Positions 7,769-32,746 of a stretch of 36,735 nucleotides of DNA are shown here, in pieces. The stretch's first letter is position 1; the number at the start of each line of letters is the position of its first letter. The notes under the pieces are model-generated. The model was given only the letters and a program-made list of their open reading frames with translations, was not told the origin of the DNA and did not search any database. The position numbers and the translations under genes are program-made. Source of the DNA: Candidatus Cryptobacteroides merdavium (GTDB taxonomy: Bacteria; Bacteroidota; Bacteroidia; Bacteroidales; UBA932); assembly GCA_017694755.1 (NCBI GenBank), contig JADIMO010000100.1, positions 1 through 36,735 on the forward strand, written 5' to 3'.

Positions 7769-7781
7769 CAATACATCAGCG

Positions 7782-7947: not shown

Positions 7948-7952
7948 GCAGC

Positions 7953-10786: not shown

Positions 10787-10877
10787 ATGGCTGTCCCGGG
10801 CGCTGCGGGGACAGTCCGCTCCGGCGGAGAAGATTCAGTCTGACACAAGTAAAACCAAAATAAATCAACAGCAATAC

Positions 10878-11333: not shown

Positions 11334-11343
11334 AATCAAGCTT

Positions 11344-12729: not shown

Positions 12730-12781
12730 TTCATATACTTGATACGTTACATTTTAATTCATTCATCAATTAATCAAAATT

Positions 12782-13189: not shown

Positions 13190-13197
13190 TCCGGCAC

Positions 13198-13246
13198 AGC
13201 GGCCATCCTGCCTTCCGGTGTGATCCGTCAGCGGGCAGGAGCCGCT
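13198..13246 (+). terminator. GC-rich hairpin after tssD1, probable attenuator or mRNA stabiliser
   Basis: AGCGGC-cat-CCTGCC (13198-13212) pairs with GGCAGG-a-GCCGCT (13234-13246), 12 base pairs with a small internal bulge and a 21-nt loop. The downstream sequence CCCGATTTTATTAT is weakly T-rich. It would limit transcription into the next genes or protect the 3' end of the Hcp message, and is a plausible place for UpxY antitermination to matter. Confidence 0.55.
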
Positions 13247-13280
13247 CCCGATTTTATTATAAGCCTATTCATCAGATATT

Positions 13281-13766: not shown

Positions 13767-13773
13767 ATCCAAT

Positions 13774-17674: not shown

Positions 17675-19474
17675 ATGGCAGTCAGTGAGATTGGGGCAAA
17701 AGAGGTCGGTAAGACAGACAATTGCTCTGAAAAAGTAAAGGTACATCTTGTATTGGTGGTAGTATTCAATAATATCAAAGAGCGCAACGGTTCTTTTGTA
17801 CCACTGGGCAGTTCTGCAGATTATAAAAATGTAATAAATAGGGCAAGATCAGAAACTGGAGCGGATAGAAAATTTATTGCAAAAACCATATATCTGTCTG
17901 AATATGATGAGAAAGAGATTCAGCGTTTCAGATTCAAATGGCAGGGTATTTTTGATTCTTACATCAATAACGCCTTGATTGAAGATATTGAAATAAGCAT
18001 ATTTTCTCCTGCAAGCAATTCATATTCATTGTCATCAATTTTTGTAAATCATTTGTTTTTCGGAAATAGAATAATGTCGGCTGATATTTTTTCCGCTTTA
18101 ACTGATCTGGTGACAAAACCTTTTGATTTGACTTATTCCAAGATTAAGGTTAACAATATTATTCCTTTGTTTTTGACATCTGCAAATGATTTTGATGCAA
18201 AGAGCACGCAGGTGGAAATAAATATTCCGGATGATAAGGATGCACAAGTTGCGGCTATCTTATGTGAATATGCATATTATTATCTGAACAAAATGGAATA
18301 TGACGATTGTTCCACAAATGACGGCGTGCCGATAGTCGGATTTATTCAAGACAGAATAAAACGTTATGGTTCCATATATACAAGATATGAGTCTTCAAAA
18401 AACGAATTGAAAATTGTACGGCATTATTTAAACTTAGAACGGTATTCTGCAGCTGTAATCTATCCCGGGAATTCATTACTGACTGAACTCTTCGACACAT
18501 TACCGTTCTCAGAACTATATTCTGCCTCTACAATATATTCAAATAATTCATTACTGACTGAATTCATCGATACATTGCCCTTCCCGATAAACAAGCTTAC
18601 AGATTTTCTTCTGGCAATAGTAAATTCACCAGACAGTCGGGACAAGAAGATAGAGGAGACGATTGAGCTTTCAACAGTGAATGAAAAGGTAAAAAATTGG
18701 AAAGTCATCCATACATTGGCAGAAGAGAACAAGGATATCATTCCATTAATATTCAAGGTGCCATATATAAGTATAGAGTTTACTCAAAATGATTCCTCGA
18801 CTGGATTTTCATCCGTTTTGTATGCTAATTTAGAAGAGAAAAAATGCATCTTTTGTACAAAGGGGAGTGATTTCGGTTGGGATATTTTGACTAATCATGA
18901 CTGGTTGGGGACAAATATTCTTCAAGGGTTATGTGGGATGTCAGATCAGTATACGCAATCTTCACTCTTGGCGTCAATGCTTGACAACATTGTCAGGGAT
19001 GATTGGCAATTGTTTTTTACGGGTCATTCTTTGGGTGGAGGGCTTGCCAGTAATAATGCTTTGGTAACAAAATACCGGCATGCAATAACGTTTAATGCTG
19101 CTGGCCTTAATTGGAATAGGATTCGAAATCTTGAAACATTATCTCAAAATCCACGAAAACGGGTTCATCCATTCATTATACAGGGCGAGGTTTTAAATAA
19201 TTGTTTGAAATATTTGGGGCAAGCGGCTTACGGATCTTCATATGCAGAAGTTAAATCCGGTACTGCATCCAATATTATTGAACCGGAGGACGGTTCTTTA
19301 GGCTGTTCGGAGCGGCATTCTATGGTAAATTTTCTGACATCCAAATCTCAATTGGGAAAGATTAAAGTCAATCCATTAAAGGTCGACTCATATCAAGAAG
19401 ACCAATATAGCGCATTATTCAAGGATATGAAATTGCAATTTAATGCTGGCTTACATGGCAGTATTCAACAGTAG
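17675..19474 (+). CDS. Class-3-type lipase, candidate T6SS phospholipase effector
   Basis: This 599-residue protein has a lipase nucleophile elbow TGHSLGGG (Ser452) followed by NNALVTKYRHAITFNAAGLN, the pattern of class 3 lipases. His548 (SERHSM) is a likely catalytic histidine, and an Asp in EPEDGS just before it is a candidate third member. The N-terminal 400 residues are unrecognised and contain a 25-residue tandem duplication. No signal peptide is seen, which suits delivery by T6SS rather than the Sec route. It sits after vgrG and the PAAR-like tip and before a putative immunity gene, as for Tle-type antibacterial lipase effectors. Target lipid and export are unproven. Confidence 0.75.
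   Translation: MAVSEIGAKEVGKTDNCSEKVKVHLVLVVVFNNIKERNGSFVPLGSSADYKNVINRARSETGADRKFIAKTIYLSEYDEKEIQRFRFKWQGIFDSYINNALIEDIEISIFSPASNSYSLSSIFVNHLFFGNRIMSADIFSALTDLVTKPFDLTYSKIKVNNIIPLFLTSANDFDAKSTQVEINIPDDKDAQVAAILCEYAYYYLNKMEYDDCSTNDGVPIVGFIQDRIKRYGSIYTRYESSKNELKIVRHYLNLERYSAAVIYPGNSLLTELFDTLPFSELYSASTIYSNNSLLTEFIDTLPFPINKLTDFLLAIVNSPDSRDKKIEETIELSTVNEKVKNWKVIHTLAEENKDIIPLIFKVPYISIEFTQNDSSTGFSSVLYANLEEKKCIFCTKGSDFGWDILTNHDWLGTNILQGLCGMSDQYTQSSLLASMLDNIVRDDWQLFFTGHSLGGGLASNNALVTKYRHAITFNAAGLNWNRIRNLETLSQNPRKRVHPFIIQGEVLNNCLKYLGQAAYGSSYAEVKSGTASNIIEPEDGSLGCSERHSMVNFLTSKSQLGKIKVNPLKVDSYQEDQYSALFKDMKLQFNAGLHGSIQQ
18440..18589 (+). repeat. Tandem duplication (2 x 75 bp) inside the lipase gene
   Basis: Units 18440-18514 and 18515-18589 each encode 25 residues with the shared core NSLLTE-(F/L)-DTLPF. 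They agree closely in the second half, including the identical stretch AATTCATTACTGACTGAA, and diverge in the first half, so the duplication is not very recent. Confidence 0.8.
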
Positions 19475-19500
19475 TTTTCTTTAATCAGAGAAATCAAATT

Positions 19501-20514
19501 GTGGCTTGCTGCAAGTCGGGTTGTCGTATGATAGTAAATGGTAATGCACATAGTTTATATCCGGCTATAATTCATGTGGGATTTATAGCTGATAAGGACG
19601 GTAATGAAGTTCATATTCCATTACAATATCCCTTTCAAGATGTATGGGGAGATTGTAACATTGACTATTTTTCTGATTGTGGACTTCCTTGCATATTGAA
19701 GATTGTGTGGTTGTCAATCATTGAACATTCTTTTTATTCTGCTGCATATGAATTCTGTCAGAAGGATATGGCATTGGACTCTGAACAGCTGATTGTAGGA
19801 ATGGCTCCTTATGGCGGTGTCGCAATATGGTTGAAAAGTGAAAAGAAATCTGTCCTCATCACTTGGTTTAAAGGCGAAAAAACGAAGATAAAAACAGCAG
19901 ATCTTGTTTTGGCACACCCGGATATGACTATAGGTGAATATTGTGATTACTACATCAACAACGACCCGCAGGTAAAAGAAAACCTGGAAAAGAACGGCTT
20001 GCCGCCGAAAGATCTGTTTGACAAATATATGCAGCAGTTCTCCTACCGGTATCTGCCCATGTTTGAGAAGTGGGACGGGGAGAAGTGGGTGCCTTATGAG
20101 GAGGGGGAGACTGCGCCGGAGTTCGTCAGCATTGAGGAGGCACTGTTTGACGGGACGCATGACAAGCTGAATGACGGAGGTCTGCTGAAATTCCATGAGG
20201 CGGGGAAACCGAAAAAGTTGGCGGTGAAATGGAAGATGGGGCGGTCTGAGTATTCTGCATATTTCTGGTTCGGAGAGGAGATGATACGTGAGATTTTCGG
20301 AAGGTTCTACGGGGCGCATCCGGACACAAGGACAGACTTTCTGATACACATTGATGCGGAAAGCAAGAAATATGAATTGGGGCTGTTCCGGAGCGGACTG
20401 AAAGAGCCGCATGTCATTCCGGAAAAGGCTTATCAGCTGCTGGTGTTCAAGAACAGGTTCGAGGACTTCCGCTCGGACAACTACAGTCAGGAACGCGGGG
20501 CCTGGATATGGTGA
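19501..20514 (+). CDS. DUF2931-like protein, candidate immunity to the lipase
   Basis: This 337-residue protein starts at GTG 19501 or ATG 19528. I assign it to the DUF2931 type from the segment MAPYGGVAIWLKSEKKSVLI and the overall layout (LDSEQLIVGMAPYGGVAIWL, then a later FWFGEEMIREIFGRFYG). It directly follows the lipase effector candidate (26 nt), the usual place for a cognate immunity gene. Immunity proteins to periplasm-acting lipases generally carry a signal peptide; none is clear here, so the role is uncertain. Oddly, the first 150 codons are AT-rich like the lipase gene and the rest GC-richer like the core, so the gene is a mosaic with a join near 19960. Confidence 0.65.
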   Translation: MACCKSGCRMIVNGNAHSLYPAIIHVGFIADKDGNEVHIPLQYPFQDVWGDCNIDYFSDCGLPCILKIVWLSIIEHSFYSAAYEFCQKDMALDSEQLIVGMAPYGGVAIWLKSEKKSVLITWFKGEKTKIKTADLVLAHPDMTIGEYCDYYINNDPQVKENLEKNGLPPKDLFDKYMQQFSYRYLPMFEKWDGEKWVPYEEGETAPEFVSIEEALFDGTHDKLNDGGLLKFHEAGKPKKLAVKWKMGRSEYSAYFWFGEEMIREIFGRFYGAHPDTRTDFLIHIDAESKKYELGLFRSGLKEPHVIPEKAYQLLVFKNRFEDFRSDNYSQERGAWIW

Positions 20515-20611: not shown

Positions 20612-20941
20612 ATGGCAAATGAAGAAATCTACGATGATGATGAGTTCATCATCAATCTGACAATTGACGGTACGGCTTACGAAGAAGTCGAAGTCAAGGT
20701 GACGGATCCGAACAAGACAATCCGTGACCAGATCTCCAGCATCGTGGCAGTTTTTGAGCTGCCGAAGCTTGACAACGGAGGCAATCCGATTCAGTATCTG
20801 CTCGGACAGATCATGGATGACGGCGCAGAGCCTGAAATCCTTGAATTTGAGGATGAGGACGGAAGGGAGCAGGCCCTTGTGGACTATAATATCCAGCCGG
20901 GGGATCATCTTCACCTCATTTCAGTGCCTATTGCAGGATGA
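20612..20941 (+). CDS. Ubiquitin-like (beta-grasp) modifier protein
   Basis: This 109-residue protein has a beta-grasp pattern: two N-terminal strands (EFIINLTIDG, YEEVEVKVTD), a helix (TIRDQISSIVAVFEL), and late strands with the ubiquitin-family turn LVDYNIQPGDHLHLISVP. It ends PIAG, so the terminal Gly is already exposed and could be adenylated without trimming. An E2-like gene follows 9 nt later, and JAMM and E1-like genes lie in the same operon, which makes a protein modifier much more likely than a sulfur carrier or chance. The acidic N terminus (NEEIYDDDE) would be a flexible tail. A YukD-like secretion-linked relative is the alternative. Target proteins are unknown. Confidence 0.8.
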   Translation: MANEEIYDDDEFIINLTIDGTAYEEVEVKVTDPNKTIRDQISSIVAVFELPKLDNGGNPIQYLLGQIMDDGAEPEILEFEDEDGREQALVDYNIQPGDHLHLISVPIAG

Positions 20942-20950
20942 CGACAAAAC

Positions 20951-21667
20951 ATGCAGCTCAAAATGAACGAAGCGATAAATAAATTCAATCAGAAGGAGTT
21001 GTCAGGACGGGATGCCCGTCTCTGGAAGGAATGGAAGGAGCTTGATTCGCTGTGTGCCAGACGCAAGGCTGCGGCGGAAAACCCGCGCAAGCCTTCGTTG
21101 TCCTATATCATCCGCAGGAAGAATGCGATGGGACTTCCGGTGGAGTATGAGATATGGTACAGGGTGAAGTCCATAGTAGGAGTCAAGGGGGATACGATAC
21201 CGCGTGAGCCGATATTCGGATATCTGCACAAGATGAGCATTGTCCTCCCTAACAATTACCCGTCCGCAGACGGCAATCCCATATTCACCTTCCGTTCGGA
21301 TGTGTGGCATCCGAATATCCGGTATTCGGGAAGTTTCAAGGGACATGTCTGTCTTACCATCAAGGAGATGGGTGTACTTGCATCCCTGAAGGACCTGGTG
21401 CTGCGTGTGGAGATGTATCTCAAATATCAGCTCTATCATGCACAGAACACTTATCCTTATCCAGAGGACCAGAATGTGGCCGAATGGGTAAGGGAAGAGG
21501 GTGAACCCAACGGATGGGTGCGCTTCGGCCAGGACATGTCTGAGGATGACGGCGGCCGTGGTGCCGACAGGGTCCAGGAAGCAGGGACGGAAAGAGGTGA
21601 CCAGACGGAGAGTCCGGAGAATGGACAGGCAAAGGCAGGTCCGAAGATTATTGCAAAGAAAATATGA
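20951..21667 (+). CDS. E2-like ubiquitin-conjugating enzyme (UBC fold)
   Basis: This 238-residue protein would accept the Ubl from the E1 as a Cys thioester and pass it to targets. The UBC core runs from about 50 to 175: strands YEIWYRV and YLHKMSIVLPNNYPSADGNPIFTF, then W119-H120-P121-N122 and catalytic Cys134 in GHVCL. The HPN-to-Cys spacing is 14 residues, a little longer than the 10 of eukaryotic E2s. The following helix (LKDLVLRVEMYLKYQLYH) and YPYPEDQNVAEWVREE fit the C-terminal helices. The last 45 residues are a charged tail ending IIAKKI. The stop overlaps the next start (ATGA). Confidence 0.87.
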   Translation: MQLKMNEAINKFNQKELSGRDARLWKEWKELDSLCARRKAAAENPRKPSLSYIIRRKNAMGLPVEYEIWYRVKSIVGVKGDTIPREPIFGYLHKMSIVLPNNYPSADGNPIFTFRSDVWHPNIRYSGSFKGHVCLTIKEMGVLASLKDLVLRVEMYLKYQLYHAQNTYPYPEDQNVAEWVREEGEPNGWVRFGQDMSEDDGGRGADRVQEAGTERGDQTESPENGQAKAGPKIIAKKI

Positions 21668-22707
21668 TGAGAAAATTGATTGTGTCGCTGTTGGCGGCAG
21701 CATTGTTCTGCACCTCGGCATGGGCAGATCGGGAGCTTGTCGTCAGGCTTGACCCTGATGAGAACAGGGTCCAGACGATGGAGCTCGGATATGCGGCTGT
21801 GACTTTCCGTTTCGAGGAGGCGCATGCCAACAAGGCAAAGGTCATGGTTTCGGTCGAGAACCGGACACATTCGGAGGCCATCCTCCTCTTCAAGTCAGAG
21901 AAGGATGAACGGATGCTGAAAAGGTGCGAAGACAGGATTCTGTTTGAGAAATCCTATGGAGGAGAAAAGGGATACCGTACGGTATCCGGCTGCAATTACA
22001 TCCGGAATGAATATGAGCTGGTCGAGCCGGCCTATACTCTTGACCTGTTCCTTGCCGAGGTCCCGACGACGGGTACTGCCGAGATTGTCATACCGTTTTA
22101 TATGGCAAATCATTATCATTCCAGGTTCCTGAGACGGGACAAGTACAGGATTTTCCGCGAGGATGTCATAAAGTTCATTGTTGAGGCCAAGGACTGGACA
22201 GAATCTGACACTACATATGTGAAGATGAAGAAGGCCGTGTCTGACTTCAAGGCCAGTCTGGAAGATGTCAGATTCTGCAGGAACAGGATGCACCGTCCTT
22301 CCCTTGAAGAACAGCAGAAGCCTTATCTCACCGTGAGGGACAGTCTGACGGCTGTCATAGACAGCATACTCGGAAATCCGTGGTGGATGTCCCAGGATCT
22401 TCCTCACAGGTCGTATTCAAAACTGAAGGCCGAACTGCAGTCTGTCGATTTTTCAGACCTTGTCTATGACTGCGGCAGGCATCGTCCTGTCCACAAATGC
22501 AGTTATTGTCCTTTGAGTGCGGAGCAGATATATCATCGGCTTGATGACATATATCAGAAGCTGCATACGGGCAGGATAGCAAAGGAGGATGCCGTAAGGA
22601 CTGCGAAGACACTGAACAGCTGCTGGCAGCAGAACAAGTCCCGCCGTCGCGGCAGCTTCTATGCAGGCAAGATTGCAGAATATTATGGCAGGATAATAAA
22701 CTTCTGA
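21664..22707 (+). CDS. Secreted/periplasmic protein of unknown function
   Basis: This 347-residue protein has a clear Sec signal peptide (MMRKLIVSLLAAALFCTSAWA, cleavage before DRELV). No further membrane segment is seen, so it should be periplasmic. Residues 59-76 (KVMVSVENRTHSEAILLF) resemble a segment of the JAMM protein's periplasmic part (residues 44-61). A CSYC pair sits near residue 280 in a Cys/His-rich stretch, and the C-terminal quarter is helical and basic. Overlap of its start with the E2 stop shows translational coupling. I do not recognise the family. A part of the T6SS trans-envelope complex, in place of TssO-TssR, is one possibility. Confidence 0.75.
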   Translation: MMRKLIVSLLAAALFCTSAWADRELVVRLDPDENRVQTMELGYAAVTFRFEEAHANKAKVMVSVENRTHSEAILLFKSEKDERMLKRCEDRILFEKSYGGEKGYRTVSGCNYIRNEYELVEPAYTLDLFLAEVPTTGTAEIVIPFYMANHYHSRFLRRDKYRIFREDVIKFIVEAKDWTESDTTYVKMKKAVSDFKASLEDVRFCRNRMHRPSLEEQQKPYLTVRDSLTAVIDSILGNPWWMSQDLPHRSYSKLKAELQSVDFSDLVYDCGRHRPVHKCSYCPLSAEQIYHRLDDIYQKLHTGRIAKEDAVRTAKTLNSCWQQNKSRRRGSFYAGKIAEYYGRIINF

Positions 22708-22710
22708 CTT

Positions 22711-23862
22711 ATGCGTCCGTCCGTGGCTATCATATCGGCATTGTTGTCTGTCCTGCCGTCCGTCCTATGTGCAAAGGAATTCACCGACACATTGCATACG
22801 GAAGGCGGAGATGCCGTCATCATCAGATACAGCATTGAATATGACGGGAATGACATCCTTGTTTCCGCATCAGGGACTCCGCGTATCATACCTTCCGACA
22901 AATTGAGAAAGGCATGCCGGGGAGACCTTGACAAGCTGGATGTCGTCATATTCGGCCGTGTCGGTGATTTCGGAGATGTCAGGTGGAACGGGCTGAATCC
23001 GGCCACATTCATGGTGCCGGCCAATCTGGACTACAGGAAGAACGATGAAGGATTCCATATCTTAGGAGAGTCTCAGCCCATTGTGTTCACCAAAAGGGAC
23101 GGGAATGGGGCGCAGGTTGACTTTCCTGTCTTCATCGCGCTGCCCGAAAGGAAGCAGTCCTACAGGATTATGGCCAGGACCTCAGCACCGTTGAAGGTCC
23201 GTATGGCGGGGGAGGCGGATAAAGGCAGACGGGCAGATGCGGCAACTTACGGCGATGTCCGCGCCCGGTCTCATGCAGACCCGAAGCCGGCAGAGAATGA
23301 AGCAGACATGTCGAATGCCATGGGAAGCATTGAAATGATCCGCCGCCTGTTGGCCGAGGCGGACGGACTGCCTTTTTCCCAGACTCTCCAGATGGAAATC
23401 TATAATTTGGGAGCGCTCAAAAACCGGATAACGGACAGGGCGGTCATAGATGAAATCAATGCCGTGATGTTTGAATACACCCGGAAGGAGGCAGAACTCA
23501 AGGAACGGCAGAATGCTGCGGCTCTGGCGGCAAAGGCGGAGGAACAGGCATTGCTGGCAAGACAGAAATCCGAGGAGGAAGCCCGTCAGAAGGAAGCTGA
23601 GGAAGAGGCACGGCTGCAGGCTGAACAACAGCAGAAGCGGACTTTCGGGATGATAGCCGGAGGTGCGGTGCTTGCGGTATTGTGCTTCATCGGCAATGCT
23701 GTCATCAAGCATTTGGGCAATGTGAGGAACCAGCGCAATATAATGGAGATGCAGCAGTCCCTTACAAGACAGGCAGAAAGTGAGGCCCACCGGCGTTCGC
23801 AGTCTGCCATACAGGACGCAGTCAGGAAAAGACGCAACAATTCAACACGAAAATCCATATAA
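22711..23862 (+). CDS. Signal-peptide protein with coiled coil and single membrane span
   Basis: This 383-residue protein has a signal peptide (MRPSVAIISALLSVLPSVLC), a periplasmic beta-rich region (about 25-165), a linker, a helical region, a Glu/Ala/Gln-rich coiled coil (about 255-310), a membrane segment (MIAGGAVLAVLCFIGNAVI, about 314-332) and a basic cytosolic tail of 50 residues. The layout suggests a structural element bridging periplasm and cytoplasm, comparable in plan to TssO of the Bacteroidota T6SS, but I see no convincing sequence match. It lies 3 nt after the preceding gene and abuts the JAMM gene exactly. Confidence 0.75.
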   Translation: MRPSVAIISALLSVLPSVLCAKEFTDTLHTEGGDAVIIRYSIEYDGNDILVSASGTPRIIPSDKLRKACRGDLDKLDVVIFGRVGDFGDVRWNGLNPATFMVPANLDYRKNDEGFHILGESQPIVFTKRDGNGAQVDFPVFIALPERKQSYRIMARTSAPLKVRMAGEADKGRRADAATYGDVRARSHADPKPAENEADMSNAMGSIEMIRRLLAEADGLPFSQTLQMEIYNLGALKNRITDRAVIDEINAVMFEYTRKEAELKERQNAAALAAKAEEQALLARQKSEEEARQKEAEEEARLQAEQQQKRTFGMIAGGAVLAVLCFIGNAVIKHLGNVRNQRNIMEMQQSLTRQAESEAHRRSQSAIQDAVRKRRNNSTRKSI

Positions 23863-25968
23863 ATGAAACTGATCCGATTACATACGCTGATCGCATCCTT
23901 ATTGCTGATCGGCATGTCGCCTTCTGTGGCCTATGCCGAGAAAGTCACAAAGAATGATGTCACCATGACATATTCTGCCCTTGATGACGGCAGGATAATG
24001 GTCACAGGTGTAGAGAACAGATCCGACAAACTGATAATGCTCTCGATAGACGGTGTAGACTCCAAGTGCATCACTGTCAATGCCGGCACGAGCGTGCAGG
24101 TGAACCAGTATGCGGAACAGACCGTCAAGTTTGACTATGCCAAGAACAGCGGGGCCGTCCTTTGGCAGGCCTCTGAAAAACAGAAGGAAGTTGTTTCGCC
24201 TGAGTCTGACGGGACCGGTGAGACCTCTGATGTCACGGATGCGGCAGCAGTGCATGCCGCTCCTTCTTCCGCGGAGCACCGTCCGGCCAGGACAGCAAGA
24301 CGTGCAGGAGGCAATGCGTCCGAGACTTATCTGGAACTCATGAACAATGATGAGTTCTTCGGCATTGAGGCGGTGGAGACTTATGTCCGGAAAGCAGATG
24401 CCTATGCCGAGGCTCTTTCCGCTTCTGCGGACAAGAACCAGTTCATAATAGACCATGACCTGAAGGCATTCCTGCTCAATTCCATTGAGGAGATTGACAG
24501 GAAACGGGAAGAAATACCGCAGGTGGCCCGGGAAATCGTGTCAACATCAAAGGCTACAGCCATTTCCAATCCTGAAATAGTGGTCAAGTATGTGGTGGAG
24601 ACATTGAACAACAGGCTGCGGGACCGTGAAGATGCCTATGACAGGCTGAATGACCTCGTTTCCGGAGTGCAGGAAGAAGATGCACGTCCGCATCCGCTGA
24701 CACTCGACGGCGGTCTGGTCAACTATGCTGTTGTTGCCGTCATATTCCTGATATTGCTCATCTGGATAATTGTGGCCATAAGCAAGAAGAAAAAGAGCCG
24801 GAAAGAGCAGCATCAGGCTGTTGCGGATGTCCATGTGCATCAGGATGACGCCAATCAGGCTATCGTGGTGAGGAGACGGACCACTTCCATCCTGAAAAAG
24901 CAGAGTCTTGAAGACGTGGTGGACAACCCTGCATATCTGGTCGTCGAGACTTCCGACTTTGTCCAGGATTCCGCGGTAAGGCGCATATATGTCAAGAACT
25001 CATGTATCAAGGACATCTACAATCTTTACGCAGAAGATCTCCGCAATGCGGACAATCCCAAGGAGGACGGATGCATGGTCCTCGGACGTTGGGTGTATGA
25101 CGAGGCTGCGCATGTCTATGACATTTCGATGGAGATTGCCGTCTTTCCCGGGGATGATGCCGTCTTCAAGGAATATGAACTGAATTTCGGCGGCAAGATA
25201 AAGCTTCGGATTGCAGAGAAGCTCCGCAAGCTGAGACGGGATACCAATCTGCAGTATGATCTCACCTGCTGGATTCATTCGCATCCTGGACTCGGAGTAT
25301 TCTTCAGCAATTCGGACAGCAATGTGCAGATGCAGCTGAAGCATGCCCAGCATCCTAATTTCCTGGTGGCTTTTGTCGTGGATATCCTGACTTCAGATCA
25401 GGAGCTCGGCATATTCACATTCAGAAAGGACGGGACAATCAATTCAAGAGGAGACCTCACCAGGATGTATTCCCTTGAAACCATGTATAAATGGGCTCTT
25501 GAAAGCGAAAGGAAGACATTCGTCCCCGAGAATTATTGCAATGTGCTTGAAAATGCAGGGGCGAGGACAGTGTCCTGTTATGGGATAGAACTGAACAACA
25601 ATGCAATCATAGACATGGTGATGATTACGGAAGAAGCCGCCGCGGGACTTGCCGGCTGGGCCGTCGGATTCACGGCAGACAGCGGCAAGGGAAAGGAGTA
25701 TGTCATATCGGGCATAGTCAGGGACAGTGAAAAGCCGGCGGCAGGAATCCAGGGATGTCTTGTGTGCATAACCCACATGAGCCTGCCCACCATCCAGCGT
25801 CTTGTCGCATCGGAAAGCACTGAAGTGAATTTTGTCCTCGTATATTCCTCCAGGCAGATGACCTTGACTTCAATCCCTGTCATAAACGGGGAGGTGGTGA
25901 CTGACGAAAGTTTTTATGGGGACGTAAATGTTGATGACCTGAAGATATGGACACGAAGAAAAAGATAG
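23863..25968 (+). CDS. Membrane-anchored JAMM/MPN isopeptidase (deubiquitinase-like)
   Basis: This 701-residue protein has a signal peptide (to about residue 25), a periplasmic region (26-285), one membrane span (about 287-306, ending in a KKKKSRK stop-transfer) and a cytosolic catalytic part. The JAMM zinc motif is complete: Glu424 (SMEIAVFP), then H472-S-H474-P-G-L-G-V-F-F-S482-N-S-D485. Such zinc metallopeptidases cut isopeptide bonds to, or trim the C termini of, ubiquitin-like proteins. Since the Ubl already ends in Gly, removal from targets is the more likely role. A second MPN-like or regulatory region follows (about 565-701). It overlaps the next gene by 22 nt. Confidence 0.88.
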   Translation: MKLIRLHTLIASLLLIGMSPSVAYAEKVTKNDVTMTYSALDDGRIMVTGVENRSDKLIMLSIDGVDSKCITVNAGTSVQVNQYAEQTVKFDYAKNSGAVLWQASEKQKEVVSPESDGTGETSDVTDAAAVHAAPSSAEHRPARTARRAGGNASETYLELMNNDEFFGIEAVETYVRKADAYAEALSASADKNQFIIDHDLKAFLLNSIEEIDRKREEIPQVAREIVSTSKATAISNPEIVVKYVVETLNNRLRDREDAYDRLNDLVSGVQEEDARPHPLTLDGGLVNYAVVAVIFLILLIWIIVAISKKKKSRKEQHQAVADVHVHQDDANQAIVVRRRTTSILKKQSLEDVVDNPAYLVVETSDFVQDSAVRRIYVKNSCIKDIYNLYAEDLRNADNPKEDGCMVLGRWVYDEAAHVYDISMEIAVFPGDDAVFKEYELNFGGKIKLRIAEKLRKLRRDTNLQYDLTCWIHSHPGLGVFFSNSDSNVQMQLKHAQHPNFLVAFVVDILTSDQELGIFTFRKDGTINSRGDLTRMYSLETMYKWALESERKTFVPENYCNVLENAGARTVSCYGIELNNNAIIDMVMITEEAAAGLAGWAVGFTADSGKGKEYVISGIVRDSEKPAAGIQGCLVCITHMSLPTIQRLVASESTEVNFVLVYSSRQMTLTSIPVINGEVVTDESFYGDVNVDDLKIWTRRKR

Positions 25969-28352
25969 TCAAGGCGCTCCTCTTGCTCGGGAGCCTGATT
26001 CCGGCATGCATCTGTGCGGATGCCCGGGATGCTGAAGTTGCCGGTATCCGGTTCTGTGACCGGTCGTACAGCTATGGTATGGGCAATGATACCATAAGGG
26101 TATATTTCAATGTTCTCGGAGATGACGGGAAAAGGATATCTGACTTGACTCCTGAACGCTTCGACGAGATGCTTTATTTTTATGAGGACGGGACTGAAAT
26201 ACAGGACAGGAGCGTAAGACGCATCAGCACGGGCATAAGGATTCCGCGTGAATATACGTTTTCTCTCCTGCTTGACCGCAGCATTCCGTCTGAAGGAAAG
26301 CGGCAGATACTGGATGCGGTCCGGAACTTCATGGAAGCTGCTCCGGATACAAGTGTCTTTGTATCTTTCTATGGGGACGAGGTGACAAACAGCATCCTTG
26401 CTTCGGAAGAGAATTTCGGGATTGTTGAGGCCATTTATCTTGATACTACGGCGATTGACGGCAAGGCCTTCTACAGCGGGGTATATTCGAAGCTGGCGGA
26501 GTTCTCACCGGAAGACGCCGAATACATCGGTGAAGTGAAATCGGCAGAATACAGCCAGAACCGTCTCATAAGTGCCAGGGCCGCCGAGAATCCCGGAAAG
26601 AATGTGCTGATGGTCTTTGCAGAAGGAAGCCGCAGGCCAGATGATGAACAGCTTGACTATATCAAGGTTTCAGACTACCAGTCGCGGCATTCCGCATTCT
26701 TGCCCAAGGTGTATGCCTTCTATTATACCGCTGACGGCGAGGATACAAGCATAGACATAACTCTTGACGGTATAACTCAGCCGAAGGACAGCGCCAACAA
26801 TGTCATCCAGGATTTGAGGGGCCGTTATCTGCCGTCATCGGACATGTCCGAGGTCCTGTCTTCGTTCGAGCAGATAATAGAAGATGCAACATTCGATTAT
26901 GAACTGGCATATTCCGCCGTTCCGGACAAGATATATTCAGGCAATGTGGAATATTCCGCCAAGTGGGGCCGTATTCCTGCCGGAGAGGCGACATTCACGA
27001 TAGGTTCTGCTGAACGTCCGTGGCCGGAGCACAGACAGAGCACGACAAGCATTTTTGTAGAACTGTTTGTCGCAATTCTGGTTACGGTGCTGACCTTTGC
27101 ATTCTTCTTCCTCATAATGAAGGTGGCGGTGCCGTATGTCAGGTTCCTGACATTCAAGTCCAGATACTACAAGAAATACCAGCCTGAGGAGAATGTCCAG
27201 GTGCGTATCTGCCATTATTGCAAGCAGGAACTGAAGCCGGGGCAGGTGATAGTGACAAAGTGCAGCCACTGGATGCACAGGCATTGCTGGGAAGAGAACG
27301 GATACAAATGCGCTGAATTCGGACAGAACTGCAAGACAGGCATCCAGGATCATGTGGAATGGAGGGAACTCTTCAAATGGAATACGGTCAAGGACTGTTC
27401 GCAGACTATAGCCGGCATACTTGCCGGACTGGTGAGCTGGATAATTTATGAAGTATGCGGCAGGGGCGGTTTCACAGGCCTGTCCAGGGCGATAGTCGGA
27501 TTTGTTCTTGACGGTTCAGGTTCACATGCATCATTCATTGACGACTGTGTCGCGCGTACGTCATCGTTCCTTATGATCGGACTTCTTTTGGGCTTCTTCA
27601 TTTCACTTGTATTCAGATACAAGGATGATGTCCGCAACAAGGACTGGAAGATATGGTTCAAGATCGTGGGCCTTTCATGTCTCACGGCACTCATAGGAAT
27701 GGCTGCCTTTGCAATAGGGGCTGACCTGTTCTGTCTCATATTGTCCTGGTCCGGAAAGACATACATTCCTTGGTACTGTTCTCTTCCTGCATATATGCTG
27801 TTCTCGATAAGTGTTTCCCTTGCATTGACCATAAAGTCAACCATACCTGTCAGAAGTGCCCTTTTCGGAGGCCTTTGTTCGTCCCTGATAGGTTTTCTTG
27901 TCCTGTATTTCACCAGGTTTACGGGAAGCGGGTATGAATGGCTCAACATGCTGCTTGCCTTCATCATCTACGGAGGCGGGTTGGGAGCTTCTCTGATTAC
28001 CGTGAGGATGCTCGCCGAGAAATATTTCCTTGTGGTCCAGAACGGTGTGAAGGCAGGAATGAGGATTCCTATCCACAAATGGATGAATGCGGTCGGCGGC
28101 GGCAACAAGGTTTCCATCGGAATGACCGGGGAATGCGAAATCCAGATGAACTGGGAAAAGGGGAACAAGGTGGCCAAGGAACATGCCCAGCTTTTTATCG
28201 ACCATGAAAAGGGACTGCCGGTCATCAAGCCGCTTGCAACCGGAGTGCTTTACAATTCGCGGGCTGAACTGCCAGTCAACAGGACTGCTGTCCTTTCCAA
28301 TGGAGATACCTTCAAGATTGGGGACACTATTTTCAAATATGAAGAAAACTGA
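25947..28352 (+). CDS. Polytopic membrane protein with vWA-like, RING-H2-like and FHA-like regions; candidate E3
   Basis: This 801-residue protein has, in order, a signal peptide (to about 24), a periplasmic region like vWA domains (YTFSLLLDRSIPS near 103-115, a damaged MIDAS; LMVFAEGSRR near 221), membrane span 1 (about 371-392), a cytosolic zinc-ligand array C422-x2-C425-x13-C439-x-H441-x2-H444-x2-C447-x7-C455-x6-C462, six more membrane spans (485-690) and an FHA-like tail (717-801, ending LSNGDTFKIGDTIFKYE). The array follows RING-H2 spacing except for the last pair (x6, not x2). Seven spans place RING and FHA parts both in the cytosol. With E1, E2, Ubl and JAMM genes alongside, an E3 role is the natural guess. 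The FHA-like part lacks the usual Arg and Ser that bind phosphothreonine. Confidence 0.75.
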   Translation: MDTKKKIVKALLLLGSLIPACICADARDAEVAGIRFCDRSYSYGMGNDTIRVYFNVLGDDGKRISDLTPERFDEMLYFYEDGTEIQDRSVRRISTGIRIPREYTFSLLLDRSIPSEGKRQILDAVRNFMEAAPDTSVFVSFYGDEVTNSILASEENFGIVEAIYLDTTAIDGKAFYSGVYSKLAEFSPEDAEYIGEVKSAEYSQNRLISARAAENPGKNVLMVFAEGSRRPDDEQLDYIKVSDYQSRHSAFLPKVYAFYYTADGEDTSIDITLDGITQPKDSANNVIQDLRGRYLPSSDMSEVLSSFEQIIEDATFDYELAYSAVPDKIYSGNVEYSAKWGRIPAGEATFTIGSAERPWPEHRQSTTSIFVELFVAILVTVLTFAFFFLIMKVAVPYVRFLTFKSRYYKKYQPEENVQVRICHYCKQELKPGQVIVTKCSHWMHRHCWEENGYKCAEFGQNCKTGIQDHVEWRELFKWNTVKDCSQTIAGILAGLVSWIIYEVCGRGGFTGLSRAIVGFVLDGSGSHASFIDDCVARTSSFLMIGLLLGFFISLVFRYKDDVRNKDWKIWFKIVGLSCLTALIGMAAFAIGADLFCLILSWSGKTYIPWYCSLPAYMLFSISVSLALTIKSTIPVRSALFGGLCSSLIGFLVLYFTRFTGSGYEWLNMLLAFIIYGGGLGASLITVRMLAEKYFLVVQNGVKAGMRIPIHKWMNAVGGGNKVSIGMTGECEIQMNWEKGNKVAKEHAQLFIDHEKGLPVIKPLATGVLYNSRAELPVNRTAVLSNGDTFKIGDTIFKYEEN

Positions 28353-28386
28353 CAGAAAACATTATCCTGATTATTATCATAACTGA

Positions 28387-29124
28387 ATGAAAAAAGTATT
28401 TTTATTATGTATTCTGGTGGCTGCAGCCATGGAACTGATGGCGCAGACACCTGTGGACCACTTCAATGTGGGGCCTTATGTGGTAGACTATAACGGAAAG
28501 GGCGATGTCAAGTACCGTCTCCGCGACAACATTGACCTGTATGAATTCTTCGAACTCCAGAAGGATACTGTGGTCATTTCCAAGGTGTCGGGGGAATCTG
28601 TCAAAAGCGCGGTCCAGATATCTGCGAGGTATGGCTCGTCCGTGTCATCTTCCAATGAGCTCGGAGTTGACTGCGTATGGAAGAGGAACATAGCTCCAAA
28701 CCTTTATTTCAATGGCGGACTTTCACTGCTTTGGGGATATCATCAGATGGAGAATGGCGACCGGTCCGGGATGCGCAACCTGTTTGAGGCGGGCATCCCT
28801 CTGCAGATTGAATTGGGCAGGCTTGACCGCAAATGTGCCTCTTTGTATGGCATTGCCGGTGTAATACCTTCATTCTATTCCACGAAAAACACTTTCCGTC
28901 GTCTTTTCACCGGGAATGCGGATGTGGAGGGTATTCTCGACGGCTGCGGCTTCCTGCTATCCCCTGTCCTTGAGTTCGGAGGGAACATACCGGTCGGAGG
29001 AACAGTCGTCCGCATCGGTGTCTATGGGGAGTATAAGATCAACTGCACTTCGGCCCCGTACGGCAGCTGCCGGAGTGCAGACAACAGCATGTTCATAGGA
29101 ACCAGAATCGGAGTCGTCCTCTGA
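28387..29124 (+). CDS. Outer-membrane beta-barrel-like protein
   Basis: This 245-residue protein has a signal peptide (MKKVFLLCILVAAAMELMAQ, cleavage after AQ or before TPV). The rest is alternating amphipathic strands rich in Gly and aromatic residues (LYFNGGLSLLWGYHQM, VVRIGVYGEYKINC, FIGTRIGVVL at the C terminus), as in small outer-membrane barrels. It has two Cys near the C terminus. Its place among T6SS genes suggests an outer-membrane anchor or channel rim for the apparatus, but family membership is not recognised. It starts 34 nt after the preceding stop. Confidence 0.68.
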   Translation: MKKVFLLCILVAAAMELMAQTPVDHFNVGPYVVDYNGKGDVKYRLRDNIDLYEFFELQKDTVVISKVSGESVKSAVQISARYGSSVSSSNELGVDCVWKRNIAPNLYFNGGLSLLWGYHQMENGDRSGMRNLFEAGIPLQIELGRLDRKCASLYGIAGVIPSFYSTKNTFRRLFTGNADVEGILDGCGFLLSPVLEFGGNIPVGGTVVRIGVYGEYKINCTSAPYGSCRSADNSMFIGTRIGVVL

Positions 29125-29144
29125 CATGGCCTGATAGGGAAATT

Positions 29145-30350
29145 ATGGAAAGGAAGATGACATATGAGTGGGGTGACGGTGTATTTACCTTGCTTTCGTG
29201 GTTCAGGAAAGAAAAGGTGCAGAATGCCCGGATTCTCGTTGCCGGTGCCGGCGCATTGGGCAATGAGGTCATCAAGGACCTGTCCCTGTTCGGTGTGGGC
29301 CATATCTTTGTGGTTGACTTCGACCGCATCGAACTCAGCAATCTCACCCGTTCCGTCCTTTTCCGGGAAAAGGATGCCATGGTACATGAATATAAGGCGA
29401 AGATTGCGGCAGAACGTGCCATGGAGATAAATCCGCAGATAAAGGTGACACCGATTGTCGGGAATCTTTTTTCTGATGTCGGCCTGGCCCTGTACAGGTC
29501 CGTTGATGTGATTATAGGATGCCTTGACAGCAGGCTTGCCAGATATCAGCTCAACCGTATGGCGATGCGTGCCGGAAAGACTTGGATTGACGGCAGCATT
29601 GAGAATCTTACTGGGGTGGTGAAGGTGTTTACGCCCGGGATCAACTGTTATGAATGCGGCCTGTCAAGAGAAGAGTTCAATATCATAATGCTCCGCACCG
29701 GGTGTGCCGATGTGGTCAGAAACCAGACCTCGATGGGCAGGGTCGCCACAACTCCTGTCAGTGCCTCCATCATAGGTGCCATCCAGGCACAGGAAGCGTT
29801 GAAGATGATTCATCTGGATGCATACGGAGCGGACAGCCTGCCTTTCACTACATTGCAGGGCAAGATGTTCCGTTACGAAGGGCTGACCAATTCCACAGGA
29901 GTCTACAGGCTTTCATCCTGGAAAAGGAACTGTCCTTCACATGGGGTGTGGGAGCCGGTCATTGAGGCCGGAAACCTTTCGGCTGACATGTCTGTCAGGG
30001 ACGCACTTTCTTCCCTCGGAAAGATATGTGGTTCAGGGACTGTGGAGATAAACATGATGAACAACAAGTTCATAGAGGCCATAGTGTCGGATTCTCCTGA
30101 GAAAGAATTCAGGGTTATGGTCCCTGAATCCAGACTGGATGAAACCGTTTCAGGCGATGCGGAAATGCGGAGGCTGAGCTATAAGACCATATTCCACAAA
30201 CGCTTCTTTGAGAACATAGACGGCTCGTTCCCATATCAGGACCTTACCTTGAGGCAGATAGGCATACCATATTACGATGTCATCAAAGTGACATCCGGCA
30301 AGGGCGAGTTTTTCGTGGAGTTGTCCGCTGACAAGAAAATGTTTGAATGA
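29145..30350 (+). CDS. E1-like Ubl-activating enzyme (ThiF/MoeB/UBA fold)
   Basis: This 401-residue protein would adenylate the Ubl C-terminal Gly and load it on a Cys. It has the nucleotide loop G34-AGALG, D58 and D60, N66-LTR69, Lys84/Lys86 and GCLDSR (D128). Zinc ligands appear as CYEC (168, 171) and CPSH (263, 266), the second with His in place of Cys. Cys187 (RTGCADVV) aligns with the usual catalytic Cys position, followed by TTPVSASIIGAIQAQEALK. Residues about 281-392 form a beta-grasp-like tail (LTLRQIGIPYYDVIKV), comparable to the UFD that recruits E2. Its stop overlaps the TssG start (ATGA), tying the Ubl genes to the baseplate genes. Confidence 0.88.
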   Translation: MERKMTYEWGDGVFTLLSWFRKEKVQNARILVAGAGALGNEVIKDLSLFGVGHIFVVDFDRIELSNLTRSVLFREKDAMVHEYKAKIAAERAMEINPQIKVTPIVGNLFSDVGLALYRSVDVIIGCLDSRLARYQLNRMAMRAGKTWIDGSIENLTGVVKVFTPGINCYECGLSREEFNIIMLRTGCADVVRNQTSMGRVATTPVSASIIGAIQAQEALKMIHLDAYGADSLPFTTLQGKMFRYEGLTNSTGVYRLSSWKRNCPSHGVWEPVIEAGNLSADMSVRDALSSLGKICGSGTVEINMMNNKFIEAIVSDSPEKEFRVMVPESRLDETVSGDAEMRRLSYKTIFHKRFFENIDGSFPYQDLTLRQIGIPYYDVIKVTSGKGEFFVELSADKKMFE

Positions 30351-31240
30351 TGGCCGGTTCCGAAATACCCTCCGGGCTGAAGGCGGAAGTCCTTCTTGAC
30401 TATATTCCTCGGGAAAGGCGCAGGTTTGAAATCTGCGGCTCCCATAAGCGGAATGCCTATCATGATATACTGGATATCGCTTCCGGGGAGGACGGGACAT
30501 GTGACATTTCCATAGGAAGGGACGGGCTGTATGATATTCTTCCGGAAGGCCTCTTCCACCCTGTCGACCGCTTTGAGAACATACCTGCCAATGAGTATCA
30601 TGAACGTTTTGAGGAGGAATGCGAGGCGCAGAAGACGGAAGAGGCGGAGGCACGGCATTTCTTCAGGCCGTTTGACGCTTTTCTGGCCGAACTCGGCAGT
30701 GTGGCGTACGGCTTCGGGCAGAAACATTATTCGGACAATGATGTCCTGTGCGGCATCCTGTGCGATTCGATGCCGGAGATATACAGGAACAACCGTTTTG
30801 TGGCCAAGGCCATGCCGTTCGTCCCCATGTGCAGCAGAATTAGGGGAGACAGGACTTTGTTGAGTCTGATACTGAGGAAGATATTCTATGATGAGAGCCT
30901 GCGGATGGACATGGACTGCGTCCCGGAGCTTCTCAGGGATGAGAGTCCGCGCTATTGCTCCTGTCTGGATGAACAGCCTGCCGATGGAGAGGAGACATAT
31001 CTGGGAAACGAATTCATTGAAGATATCCTGACATACAGGATTCATTATTGGAATGGGGATGAATGTGATTCCGATTTTCTGTCATTCGTGTCGGAAATCA
31101 GGGTTTTCGAGGATTTTGTGAACGACTGGTTTTCCGGGATTGAATCGGCGGTACGGTTTGATGTCAGCACCGATTCGCTTCCTGTCAGGCTGTCCGATGA
31201 CATGATATGCAATTATCTGAATTATAATACCAACATATAG
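30347..31240 (+). CDS. tssG: TssG-like T6SS baseplate protein
   Basis: This 297-residue protein is assigned mainly by context (tssK, tssE and tssF follow) and by the segment ISIGRDGLYDILPEGLFHP plus a later EARHFFRPFDAFLAELG, which I recall as typical of Bacteroidota TssG. In other T6SSs TssG forms wedges with TssF, TssE and TssK around the VgrG hub. No signal peptide or membrane segment is seen, as expected for a cytosolic wedge part. It is translationally coupled to the E1 gene. Confidence 0.65.
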   Translation: MMAGSEIPSGLKAEVLLDYIPRERRRFEICGSHKRNAYHDILDIASGEDGTCDISIGRDGLYDILPEGLFHPVDRFENIPANEYHERFEEECEAQKTEEAEARHFFRPFDAFLAELGSVAYGFGQKHYSDNDVLCGILCDSMPEIYRNNRFVAKAMPFVPMCSRIRGDRTLLSLILRKIFYDESLRMDMDCVPELLRDESPRYCSCLDEQPADGEETYLGNEFIEDILTYRIHYWNGDECDSDFLSFVSEIRVFEDFVNDWFSGIESAVRFDVSTDSLPVRLSDDMICNYLNYNTNI

Positions 31241-31244
31241 ACCG

Positions 31245-32234
31245 ATGTCCAGGAAAGTAACATGGAAAAAGGGCATGAGGCTCAGTGCGGAGATCTTTGA
31301 TGCCGCCGACAATGCGAAAGAAGAGTCATTGTCACTCGTGTCCATGCTGGCTTCTGCCGGAAGATCCGGCCTTTTTGCCGGACCGAAGCCGTTTGAACTG
31401 ACACTCAATATCAATGACAATGTTCTGGAAGTGGCGTCGCTGTCCTGCCATGGGGTTACGGAAAGCGGCAAGGTGATTGATGTTGAATTTGATTCCAATT
31501 ATTCACATACTTTTGACACGAGGCTCGGCATACCTTCCGGCAGCGGGGCGGATGCCTGGCTCCTTGTCCTGAAGATGCACGGCAGGAAATGGAGGGAAGT
31601 GGACGAGATGTATTCGGAATCCGAATATACGTTTGAACTGCAGGGCGAAAACACCAGGATTGATGCGGATTCGCTGCCTGTCGGCCGTATAGTCAACCGT
31701 TATGGCTGGAGGCTGGACGAGATGGACTTTGTCCCTCCGTGCCTGTTTGTAAGATCGCATCCGATGTATCAGAGACAGTTTGAAGAAGCGTCGGAACTTC
31801 TGGGAAAGATTTCCGGGAAATGCCGTTCGTCGGAAAACTGCGTGGCAAGGACCTTCCTTTCGGCAGTGTGGCCGGCTGCGGACAATGTGCTGATAACTTT
31901 TGATAAGGAGCGCGACATGCTCACTCCCGACCGCCTCTATGCGGGAATCCAGCAGTTTGTCAATTCATTTGTCATTGGCTGCAGGCTGGATGAACATATA
32001 AATCTGGAGAATCCGGAACCTTTCATGCTGTATGTCCGGAAGCCGTATGACAGGAGGAACCTCCTGCAGGACATAGCCCAGGGGCTGGCCCTCTGTGCGG
32101 AGATAGTCCTGAAGGTGGAGACTGTGTGTGCAATGACCGAAGAGAGGAGGAGCGTGCCGGAAGAGCCTGAACCGGAGAAAAAGCCTGAGCCGCAGAAGCC
32201 GGTCAAAAACCGTTGGGACGGGATTGAAATCTGA
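31245..32234 (+). CDS. tssK: TssK baseplate protein
   Basis: This 329-residue protein begins with the TssK pattern VTWKKGMRLSAEIFDAAD. The central part shows LVLKMHGRKWREVDEM and YGWRLDEMDFVPPCLFV. The tail has DIAQGLALCAEIVLKVE and a Pro/Glu/Lys-rich stretch ending KNRWDGIEI. TssK trimers link the baseplate wedges to the membrane complex, so in this locus TssK is the part expected to touch whatever replaces the membrane complex. It lies 4 nt after tssG. Confidence 0.85.
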   Translation: MSRKVTWKKGMRLSAEIFDAADNAKEESLSLVSMLASAGRSGLFAGPKPFELTLNINDNVLEVASLSCHGVTESGKVIDVEFDSNYSHTFDTRLGIPSGSGADAWLLVLKMHGRKWREVDEMYSESEYTFELQGENTRIDADSLPVGRIVNRYGWRLDEMDFVPPCLFVRSHPMYQRQFEEASELLGKISGKCRSSENCVARTFLSAVWPAADNVLITFDKERDMLTPDRLYAGIQQFVNSFVIGCRLDEHINLENPEPFMLYVRKPYDRRNLLQDIAQGLALCAEIVLKVETVCAMTEERRSVPEEPEPEKKPEPQKPVKNRWDGIEI

Positions 32235-32245: not shown

Positions 32246-32746
32246 ATGGCAGGATTCATATGCATACCGTTGTCTGTCTCGCCCGGCAGTTCACCCGTGC
32301 TTCTGAGGGAAGAAGGTGAGCTGGAGAAAAGCATTGACAACATACTGGACCTGATAATATTCACACCGAAGGGTTCGTTCAGCGCAGACCCTGAATTCGG
32401 GTTTGAATATTGGAACCATGAGTTCTCCAATATGGACATACGCGAATTCAACAACAATTATGTCGGCCTCATGTCTTCCGGCGGTGTTCTGAATGAAATT
32501 TCAAGACGGGAGTGTGAAGACAGCATAAGGGAGAGCATTCTGGCATACGAGCCGAGACTTCTGCAGCCCGATGTAAAGATAAGTCTCAACCCGAGTGACA
32601 AGGTGCGGAACGGCAACAGGATTTCAAAGTATGAAATGCGCATCACCGTCACCGGGGCAATTGATGACGGGCTCGGAGTCAGACGGCAGTATGAGAAGAG
32701 GGTAGCCTTTATGGTGGAGCCCGTGGCACATAAGATCAACATCTGA
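32246..32746 (+). CDS. tssE: TssE (gp25-like) baseplate protein
   Basis: This 166-residue gp25-like protein shows the family signature at residues 28-55: SIDNILDLIIFTPKGSF, then PEFGFEYW, and a later REFNNNYVGL region and ISRRECEDSIRESILAYEPRL. gp25-like proteins start sheath polymerisation at the baseplate. Bacteroidota TssE often show such an N-terminal extension. It is separated from tssF by one base. Confidence 0.88.
   Translation: MAGFICIPLSVSPGSSPVLLREEGELEKSIDNILDLIIFTPKGSFSADPEFGFEYWNHEFSNMDIREFNNNYVGLMSSGGVLNEISRRECEDSIRESILAYEPRLLQPDVKISLNPSDKVRNGNRISKYEMRITVTGAIDDGLGVRRQYEKRVAFMVEPVAHKINI

Follow-up and report, generated by a model that had tools for sequence, protein, structure and literature searches.

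A ubiquitin-like conjugation cassette encoded within a Bacteroidota type VI secretion locus and its possible role in the control of assembly

A contig of Candidatus Cryptobacteroides merdavium (JADIMO010000100.1) encodes, within a type VI secretion system (T6SS) locus, a cassette of five genes for ubiquitin-like conjugation: a ubiquitin-like modifier (Ubl), an E2, a JAMM protein, a RING protein and an E1. The window analysed here is this whole contig (C71), 36,735 nt long, which belongs to a genome of 2.5 Mb in 140 contigs that is 89% complete. The five genes span positions 20612-30350, all on the + strand, between effector and baseplate genes. The identity of the cassette families, the integrity of their diagnostic residues and a stable linkage to T6SSs across distant relatives are evident from sequence or from structural models, and the linkage is not accidental. 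With regard to function, we lean towards the view that the cassette governs how the weapon is assembled, with the Ubl being attached to a T6SS component located at the inner membrane and removed again where the JAMM protein is present.

Relatives of the cassette were collected in a scan of public genomes that returned 91 encoding stretches, 80 of them retained, which represent 78 distinct loci; the alignments behind the invariant residues reported below reach down to 16-33% identity. The Ubl gene (20612..20941, + strand) encodes 109 residues with the C-terminus ...HLHLISVPIAG, and the last 12 residues, starting from D98 (before which the protease Asp-N cuts), are DHLHLISVPIAG. A single-sequence Pfam scan of the Ubl gave unrelated matches only, at 0.07 or worse. 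The AlphaFold2 model adopts a beta-grasp fold (predicted local distance difference test, 82.7), and ubiquitins and other Ubl domains are among the best rows of a Foldseek search with that model. Against the single-copy ubiquitin chains of solved structures the best score of the Ubl profile was 0.0011, the commonest ubiquitin sequence being matched at 0.022, and alignment with ubiquitin by hhalign gave a probability of 94.6% (E 7e-8). The C-terminal Gly is invariant in 46 aligned sequences and is exactly the last residue in 73 of 76 called relatives (IAG in 64, FPG in 7 and IPG in 2), the other three extending 2-4 residues beyond it; the Ubl called in L092 is just 57 residues long. The beta-grasp fold and glycine end named in an earlier reading of this DNA (the original prediction) are therefore upheld; the terminus of the window Ubl is a lone Gly (IAG) rather than GG.

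The E2 gene (20951..21667, +) follows the Ubl gene at a spacing of 9 bp; judging from relatives, its translation is more likely to start at 20963 than at 20951. The protein carries the motifs WHPNI and GHVCL with a predicted catalytic Cys134, and its UBC fold is recognized by profile, in that a profile made from the alignment of relatives matches UBE2K at 5.3e-9; the single sequence reaches UQ_con in Pfam at 4.2e-5, under the curated cut-off. H120, P121, N122 and C134 are invariant in 32 aligned sequences, and the HPN and Cys occur at fixed spacing in 78/78 loci, across which E2 identity ranges from 35 to 91%. The E1 gene (29145..30350, +) encodes 401 residues with one ThiF/UBA adenylation domain, a predicted catalytic Cys187 and a CxxC...CxxH set (168, 171, 263 and 266), and both C187 and this set are invariant in 28 aligned sequences. 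ThiF at 4.8e-48 is the one clear Pfam match that any of the five cassette proteins gives as a single sequence, and among solved structures the E1 profile returned UBA7 (2e-35), UBA1, MoeB (2e-29) and BubCD (1e-12). An E2 with HPN and Cys and an E1 with Cys187, as first proposed from the window's own letters, are both sustained by these matches; neither the beta-grasp nor the UBC fold, the absence of which had been named as a refutation, proved to be missing.

The predicted JAMM deconjugase (23863..25968, +) was recognized by its profile, which matches Rpn11 at 3.5e-9; alone in Pfam the protein reaches Prok-JAB at 0.0027, under the curated cut-off, and a PF14464 search of the window's own genome matched nothing. 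Its catalytic set (E401, H472, H474, S482 and D485) is invariant in 27 aligned sequences and the signature HxHP-x6-SxxD is present in 65/65 JAMM relatives, so that the full JAMM motif claimed earlier holds. The JAMM protein was matched in 66 of the 78 loci, and three of the other 12 (L043, L050 and L080) are incomplete stretches. Hydropathy and flanking charge predict a signal-peptide-like start (also seen by eye), a periplasmic part, a transmembrane segment (TM) at 289-307 and a cytosolic JAMM domain. In 73/76 relatives the Ubl gene itself ends at the bare terminal Gly, and a JAMM is therefore unneeded for maturation there; where the Ubl is encoded mature, the JAMM protein likely acts as a deconjugase rather than as a maturation enzyme.

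The candidate RING E3 (25947..28352, +) shares a 22 bp overlap with the JAMM open reading frame. By hydropathy and flanking charge it has a hydrophobic start, a periplasmic vWA domain (94-316), a TM at 373-391, a cytosolic RING-H2-like array (C422-C462), about six further TMs and a cytosolic C-terminal FHA fold (691-801). The vWA and FHA folds, both from AlphaFold2, are additions to the original prediction, which had described a membrane-anchored JAMM and RING; both are indeed predicted membrane proteins, and their topologies place the predicted eraser and writer in the inner membrane with the active parts in the cytosol. Profile matches for the RING part are weak, namely 0.0018 against RING-H2 domains of solved structures and, alone in Pfam, Prok-RING_1 (PF14446) at 0.0036 (17.7 bits, not reaching the curated cut-off of 29.1). 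In NCBIfam and PADLOC, too, Ubl, JAMM and RING as single sequences stayed unassigned or under cut-off. The eight ligands, in cross-brace order, are nevertheless all invariant in a 33-row alignment that has just 26 invariant columns out of 991, which is beyond chance and bears out the proposed RING-H2-like array. The last ligand pair is spaced Cx6C, wider than the classical Cx2C, and the array is kept in 69/71 relatives, the two exceptions being srfB-linked loci with a differing last spacing. TFIIH-type rows of the structure comparison that spanned vWA to RING were disregarded, the root-mean-square deviation being over 20. Of 7,993 proteins scored against the RING protein, 539 reached E 1e-5 or better as homologues, 3 of the 120 listed being named; they came without context and were not used further.

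The order of genes in the window is effector slot, Ubl, E2, two envelope genes, JAMM, RING, a third envelope gene, E1 and then baseplate genes, the 3′ end of the E1 gene sharing 4 bp with the gene that follows, assigned as tssG by synteny; the arrangement on one strand with short gaps or overlaps agrees with that first proposed, both in coordinates and at the junctions. At least one T6SS core gene, with tssG counted by synteny, lies in the fetched stretch in 73 of the 78 public loci, and the neighbourhood survey thus gave no indication of accidental adjacency. The gap from E1 to tssG is within 150 bp in 61/66 loci. The five loci without a T6SS gene are L104 and L109, at which the cassette adjoins srfB, L060 and L114, on contigs of 6.7 and 5.1 kb (the genome of L114 has TssC and none was found in that of L060), and L045, on 20.6 kb. 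Two gene orders occur among the loci, that of the window and E1-tssG-tssK-tssE-tssF-Ubl-E2-x-x-RING. The latter is seen in L106-L108, L110-L113 and L115, with an incomplete E1 in L110, and L114, which shows Ubl and E2 only, was assigned to this rearranged branch by its Ubl tail, the branch having Ubls that end in PFPG or PIPG.

A sample of 393 genomes across the order gave E2 matches in 7 and TssC in 18, one TssC being a contig-end fragment. With one E2 match left out of the count (G040, E 1.8e-4 over 52 residues), 5/6 genomes with a clear E2 hold TssC, against TssC in 18/393 overall (hypergeometric 6.6e-7, ignoring kinship). The five T6SS-linked cassette genomes fall in five families; each has one copy of the Ubl, which was not found in seven other T6SS-bearing genomes. 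The sampled genus-mates of the window's genome (G008 and G368) have no E2 match, and a genome of another family (G388) has an E2 that is 86% identical, which suggests horizontal transfer. Carriers are gut and rumen bacteria, most of them with the predicted removal enzyme, and include the named isolates Barnesiella sp. An22, Xylanibacter muris and Palleniella intestinalis. Bacterial Ubl-E1-E2-JAB operons of tested function are mainly anti-phage, and the cassette could be such a system (of the Bil, Bub or CBASS-like kind) that travels with the T6SS, the E1 resembling the E1-E2 models of PADLOC (1.6e-15). We regard this as very unlikely, because the PADLOC models match none of Ubl, E2 and RING, the sole BilC match (1.2e-4) falls outside the JAMM motif, the cassette is interleaved with T6SS genes in two gene orders, and the viral contigs scanned hold no relative of it.

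In the mechanism that we propose, the E1 would adenylate the C-terminal Gly of the Ubl, take the Ubl on Cys187 and hand it to Cys134 of the E2. The RING, lying on the cytosolic face between the periplasmic vWA and the polytopic membrane domain, would bring the charged E2 to a site at the membrane or baseplate, where the tag might be joined to a subunit of the baseplate or of the membrane complex (the genes adjoining the cassette are tssG and tssK) and thereby license or position assembly; the membrane-anchored JAMM would then remove the tag. Sheath, baseplate, tube and effector proteins had been suggested as possible targets in the original prediction. No proteolytic role need be supposed. Such a layout would parallel the pathway of PpkA (writer, with external vWA), PppA (eraser) and Fha, a ubiquitin-type mark taking the place of phosphate. 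PpkA is described as having an external vWA sensor in the available text of PMC3224232, and PpkA/PppA/Fha as controlling T6SS assembly in that of PMC10482370, in which post-translational control of assembly is known mainly as phosphorylation.

The window T6SS is of the Bacteroidota type (type iii), with TssC, TssD, VgrG, ClpV and gp25 all found and with closest sheath relatives in the Bacteroidales. TssN, TssO and TssR were undetected in 5/5 cassette genomes, the window's among them (68-99% complete), whereas TssN and TssO were both detected in 4/4 canonical control genomes and TssR in 2/4; since TssR was missed in two controls that bear TssN, its absence is weak evidence. The genome search with a TssP query returned PKD-type noise. 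Among 17 genomes with a strong TssC, seven have TssN over the cut-off, five have the E2, none has both and five have neither, two of these last (G270 and G239) being on contigs under 7 kb. In the available text of a census of type iii systems (PMC10781749), all or part of TssNQOPR occurs in all 443 systems from complete genomes, the main detection model having demanded at least one TssNQOPR gene and a model without them having been run too, and no mention of such a Ubl cassette was found in that text. The same source describes Bacteroides fragilis TssN as polytopic, with a cytosolic domain that recruits TssK and is compared to a ubiquitin-like fold, and TssR as carrying a vWA-like domain.

These observations also accommodate a different reading, namely that the envelope proteins encoded at 21664 and 22711, the JAMM, the RING and the protein encoded at 28387 make up an alternative membrane complex in place of TssNQOPR, the Ubl being a covalent docking part and no switch. 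The non-detection of TssN, TssO and TssR in the five cassette genomes, together with the presence of TssN and TssO in the controls, speaks for it, as does the presence here, in place of the ubiquitin-like domain of TssN and the vWA-like domain of TssR, of a free Ubl, a RING protein that is itself polytopic and a vWA domain in the periplasm. The idea that the cassette proteins are themselves diverged TssN, TssO, TssP or TssQ was set aside for want of sequence-level support: hhalign comparison of these four with Ubl, RING, JAMM and the 21664 and 22711 proteins gave a probability of 3% or less (with a single sequence only for TssP and TssQ), and this lack of profile similarity also counts against a replacement complex. 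Three further genomes (G258, G247 and G331) gave no match to TssN, TssO, TssR, E2 or Ubl, so that other solutions or undetected homologues must exist; a replacement complex is accordingly possible, if doubtful.

In a sheath tree of 24 rows, with no L106-type row and with the root not placed, the 11 cassette rows form one side of a branch, with G258 nested inside them as the one exception. No E2 or Ubl was found in the G258 genome, and the 47 kb fetched around its T6SS held no match to JAMM, RING or E1, tssG alone being matched. The G258 T6SS is surrounded by Ser/Thr kinases, PP2C and FHA proteins; near the T6SS of G247 lie a kinase, a PP2C and one FHA protein, and near that of G331 a PP2C and proteins related to those kinases. 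Such genes around cassette-less systems favour a regulatory job for the cassette akin to that of PpkA/PppA/Fha, and allow a role as a membrane dock. As a separate observation, G258 (L026-L028), G247 and G331 possibly represent a third Bacteroidota type of control or anchoring. No kinase relatives were found in the fetched stretches of G046, G178, G242 and G285, and none of the ten window proteins scanned, those of the cassette included, had a kinase match in Pfam.

The cassette is also encountered outside T6SS loci. In a sample of 395 genomes across the phylum, matches were obtained in the window's genome and in two genomes of one genus in another order of the class, G474 (L130, L131, L137 and L138) and G568 (L132, L133 and L139-L141), where the cassette lies beside an extracellular contractile injection system (eCIS). 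Here it comprises an nSTAND gene (recognized by Pfam in G474), E1, Ubl, E2, JAMM, RING and an ion-channel gene, and the Ubls end in VPG and in VPGGK. It is divergent from a PAAR gene, its head gene starting about 120-140 bp away; beyond the PAAR gene lie large genes, one of which in G474 encodes an eCIS_core domain, and then tail tube, sheath, CIS_tube and gp25, the sheath alone having been tested by Pfam among the eCIS genes of G568. The distance from E1 to the sheath gene is about 20 kb in G474; in G568 it is about 43 kb. The genome of L104 (G016) has Pfam-confirmed srfB and a srfC-like gene beside its cassette, and its contractile sheath locus is on a different contig. The cassettes beside srfB (L104 and L109; contig C685 of G016, L019 and L020) are accompanied by extra Ubl-like genes and, in G016, by a second JAMM; one of the extra genes appears by eye to encode a tandem Ubl that is continued after IAG by a C-terminal part.

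Placement of the Ubl on effectors or spike proteins, in order to license the loading of cargo onto differing machines, would fit the closeness of the eCIS cassette to the PAAR gene, itself beside large proteins, and the position of the window cassette next to the effector slot. It seems quite unlikely, however, as the E1 is tight against the baseplate gene tssG in most loci and as the effector slot holds different genes from locus to locus, in contrast to the stable cassette. A wider conjecture, rather unlikely to hold in full, is that ubiquitin-type conjugation is a control layer of Bacteroidota contractile injection machines: in T6SSs the Ubl, ligated onto a membrane protein, would build on demand the dock that TssN carries permanently, with the RING ligase assembling firing sites and the JAMM usually erasing them, and the kit would have been re-used for eCISs.

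Several findings weigh against control of T6SS assembly by a reversible Ubl tag. The cassette beside srfB or an eCIS, without a T6SS, means that the substrate may not be a T6SS part, and at L045, in a Muribaculaceae genome, there is no T6SS gene within the 20.6 kb and no TssC match genome-wide; this cassette is an orphan or decaying. Searches of the rearranged branch turned up no catalytic JAMM relative in 9/9 genomes, the one weak match to the JAMM profile (genome of L107, 4.6e-4, profile positions 106-232) lying ahead of the JAMM part. Removal of the tag is hence non-essential there, and the reversibility first proposed fits most loci, which have the JAMM, and fails in these nine genomes. 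An Arg is the defining feature of phosphothreonine-binding FHA domains, and the FHA fold of the RING protein has M, K, S or A in its place in 33/33 rows; the metal-site motif of the vWA is degenerate in most relatives, and neither domain need therefore sense what its name implies. G388 has two kinases near its T6SS as well as the cassette, which is thus no simple replacement of phosphorylation. In one of the five cassette genomes (G242; L004 and L014) the E2 match has two in-frame stops, so that the cassette is broken or misassembled there; this stop-bearing E2 adjoins an intact Ubl and T6SS tail genes. The stops, like the single-sequence Pfam scores under threshold, would also suit decayed or accidental neighbours without function, a reading that is scarcely credible and in the main refuted by catalytic residues that stay invariant down to the lowest identities aligned and by the conserved T6SS linkage.

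Neighbouring genes of the window complete the T6SS, all on the + strand. ClpV, TssB, TssC, two Hcp (TssD) and VgrG are encoded at 8552..15798 (PF17541 TssC 8e-128, PF17642 TssD, Phage_GPD and AAA_2; TssB by position and relatives), followed at 15812..17179 by a DUF4280 protein (PF14107 2.5e-27), which we take to have a PAAR-like role. The effector slot (17675..20514), the genes of which vary between loci, holds a candidate effector (17675-19474) with a GHSLGG motif seen by eye and no Pfam match at 0.001, and a DUF2931 protein (19501-20514; 6e-6); both have same-slot relatives in G388. Within the cassette, 21664..22707 encodes a secreted or periplasmic protein of no recognized fold (signal-peptide-like N-terminus by eye; nothing above cut-off in Pfam), with 59 relatives called adjoining the E2, and 22711..23862 an envelope protein with a signal-peptide-like start and one TM near 314-332 by hydropathy (58 relatives called). 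The gene at 28387..29124 encodes a secreted protein of 245 residues, perhaps of the outer membrane, with a hydrophobic start; it is not universal, 13 relatives being called among the 78 loci. Downstream are tssG (30347..31240), assigned by synteny and by a profile match (E 6.1e-30) to the gene beside tssN-tssK in the canonical locus G285; tssK (31245..32234; TIGR03353 4.5e-11, under the curated cut-off of that model); tssE (GPW_gp25; 32246..32746; PF04965 1.2e-8); and tssF (32748..34526), which has no Pfam match of its own and is named by position and relatives, the same-position gene in G285 (related via the G046 copy) matching PF05947 T6SS_TssF at 9.6e-7.

Just upstream of ClpV (6504-8531) are a phage-type integrase gene and a NusG-domain gene, both by Pfam, which suggests a mobile island that includes an antiterminator; a NusG-like relative occupies this place in G388, and integrase-like relatives lie close by in G258. 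After tssF, 34528-35601 encodes a peptidoglycan-binding-domain protein with a C-terminal TM, with a weak relative in G388 and a look-alike (by eye) in G258, each at the same place. Promoter-like sites in the window number 46 against 25.5 expected and terminators are at chance level; these counts were not used in any reading.

If assembly control by the cassette is true, bacterial ubiquitin-like conjugation, through a eukaryote-like E1-E2-RING-JAMM set belonging to a T6SS clade, would acquire a part in operating a secretion machine, which would put ubiquitin-type chemistry to a new use. The search for a substrate could begin with about a dozen neighbouring proteins, and the anchoring and positioning of T6SSs without detectable TssN would become a directly testable question.

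Both halves, the T6SS and Ubl conjugation, are of known kinds, and their combination is without a report in open-access literature listings, where no T6SS- or eCIS-linked Ubl conjugation cassette was found (subscription papers were outside this scope, so that a prior mention is possible). Operons that join RING, E2 and JAB genes were reportedly described by Burroughs in 2011. The Ub-E1-E2-RING-Rpn11 operon of Caldiarchaeum (PMC5654768 and PMC6043591) likewise has a ubiquitin, E1-like and E2-like proteins, a small RING and an Rpn11-type JAMM, and Caldiarchaeum proteins are matched by the cassette Ubl model and JAMM profile; that operon is archaeal, with no link to a secretion machine in the abstracts, whereas the cassette has a membrane JAMM and RING, the latter with vWA and FHA on one chain. 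Bil (BilABCD) and Bub share the bacterial set of Ubl, E1, E2 and JAB, and in the available text of PMC11354881 BilA is a tandem of two Ubl domains, BilD contains two adenylation domains and BilB carries a CEHH motif. The cassette, in contrast, has a single 109-residue Ubl, a single adenylation domain and a eukaryote-like HPN E2, and so falls outside Bil as described; as for Bub, its E1 matches BubCD (the molecule name in the PDB) far less strongly than UBA7. Ubl-conjugation modules with a prokaryotic RING in vWA-MoxR/FtsH conflict systems also bring E1, E2, Ubl, JAB and RING into one operon, but, in the portions of PMC7159879 consulted, with a fused Ubl-E2 and an EAD1/caspase context instead of contractile injection. 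The type iii T6SS with TssNQOPR (PMC10781749, available text) has TssB, TssC, TssD, VgrG, ClpV, tssG, tssK, tssE and tssF in common with the window system, which is without detected TssN, TssO and TssR and carries the Ubl cassette. The PpkA/PppA/Fha pathway, as far as described in the available text of PMC3224232 and PMC10482370, shares a membrane writer with an external vWA, an eraser and an FHA-fold part, all encoded with the T6SS; the mark of the cassette differs in being a Ubl, with no kinase in the cassette and with an FHA fold that has lost the usual Arg.

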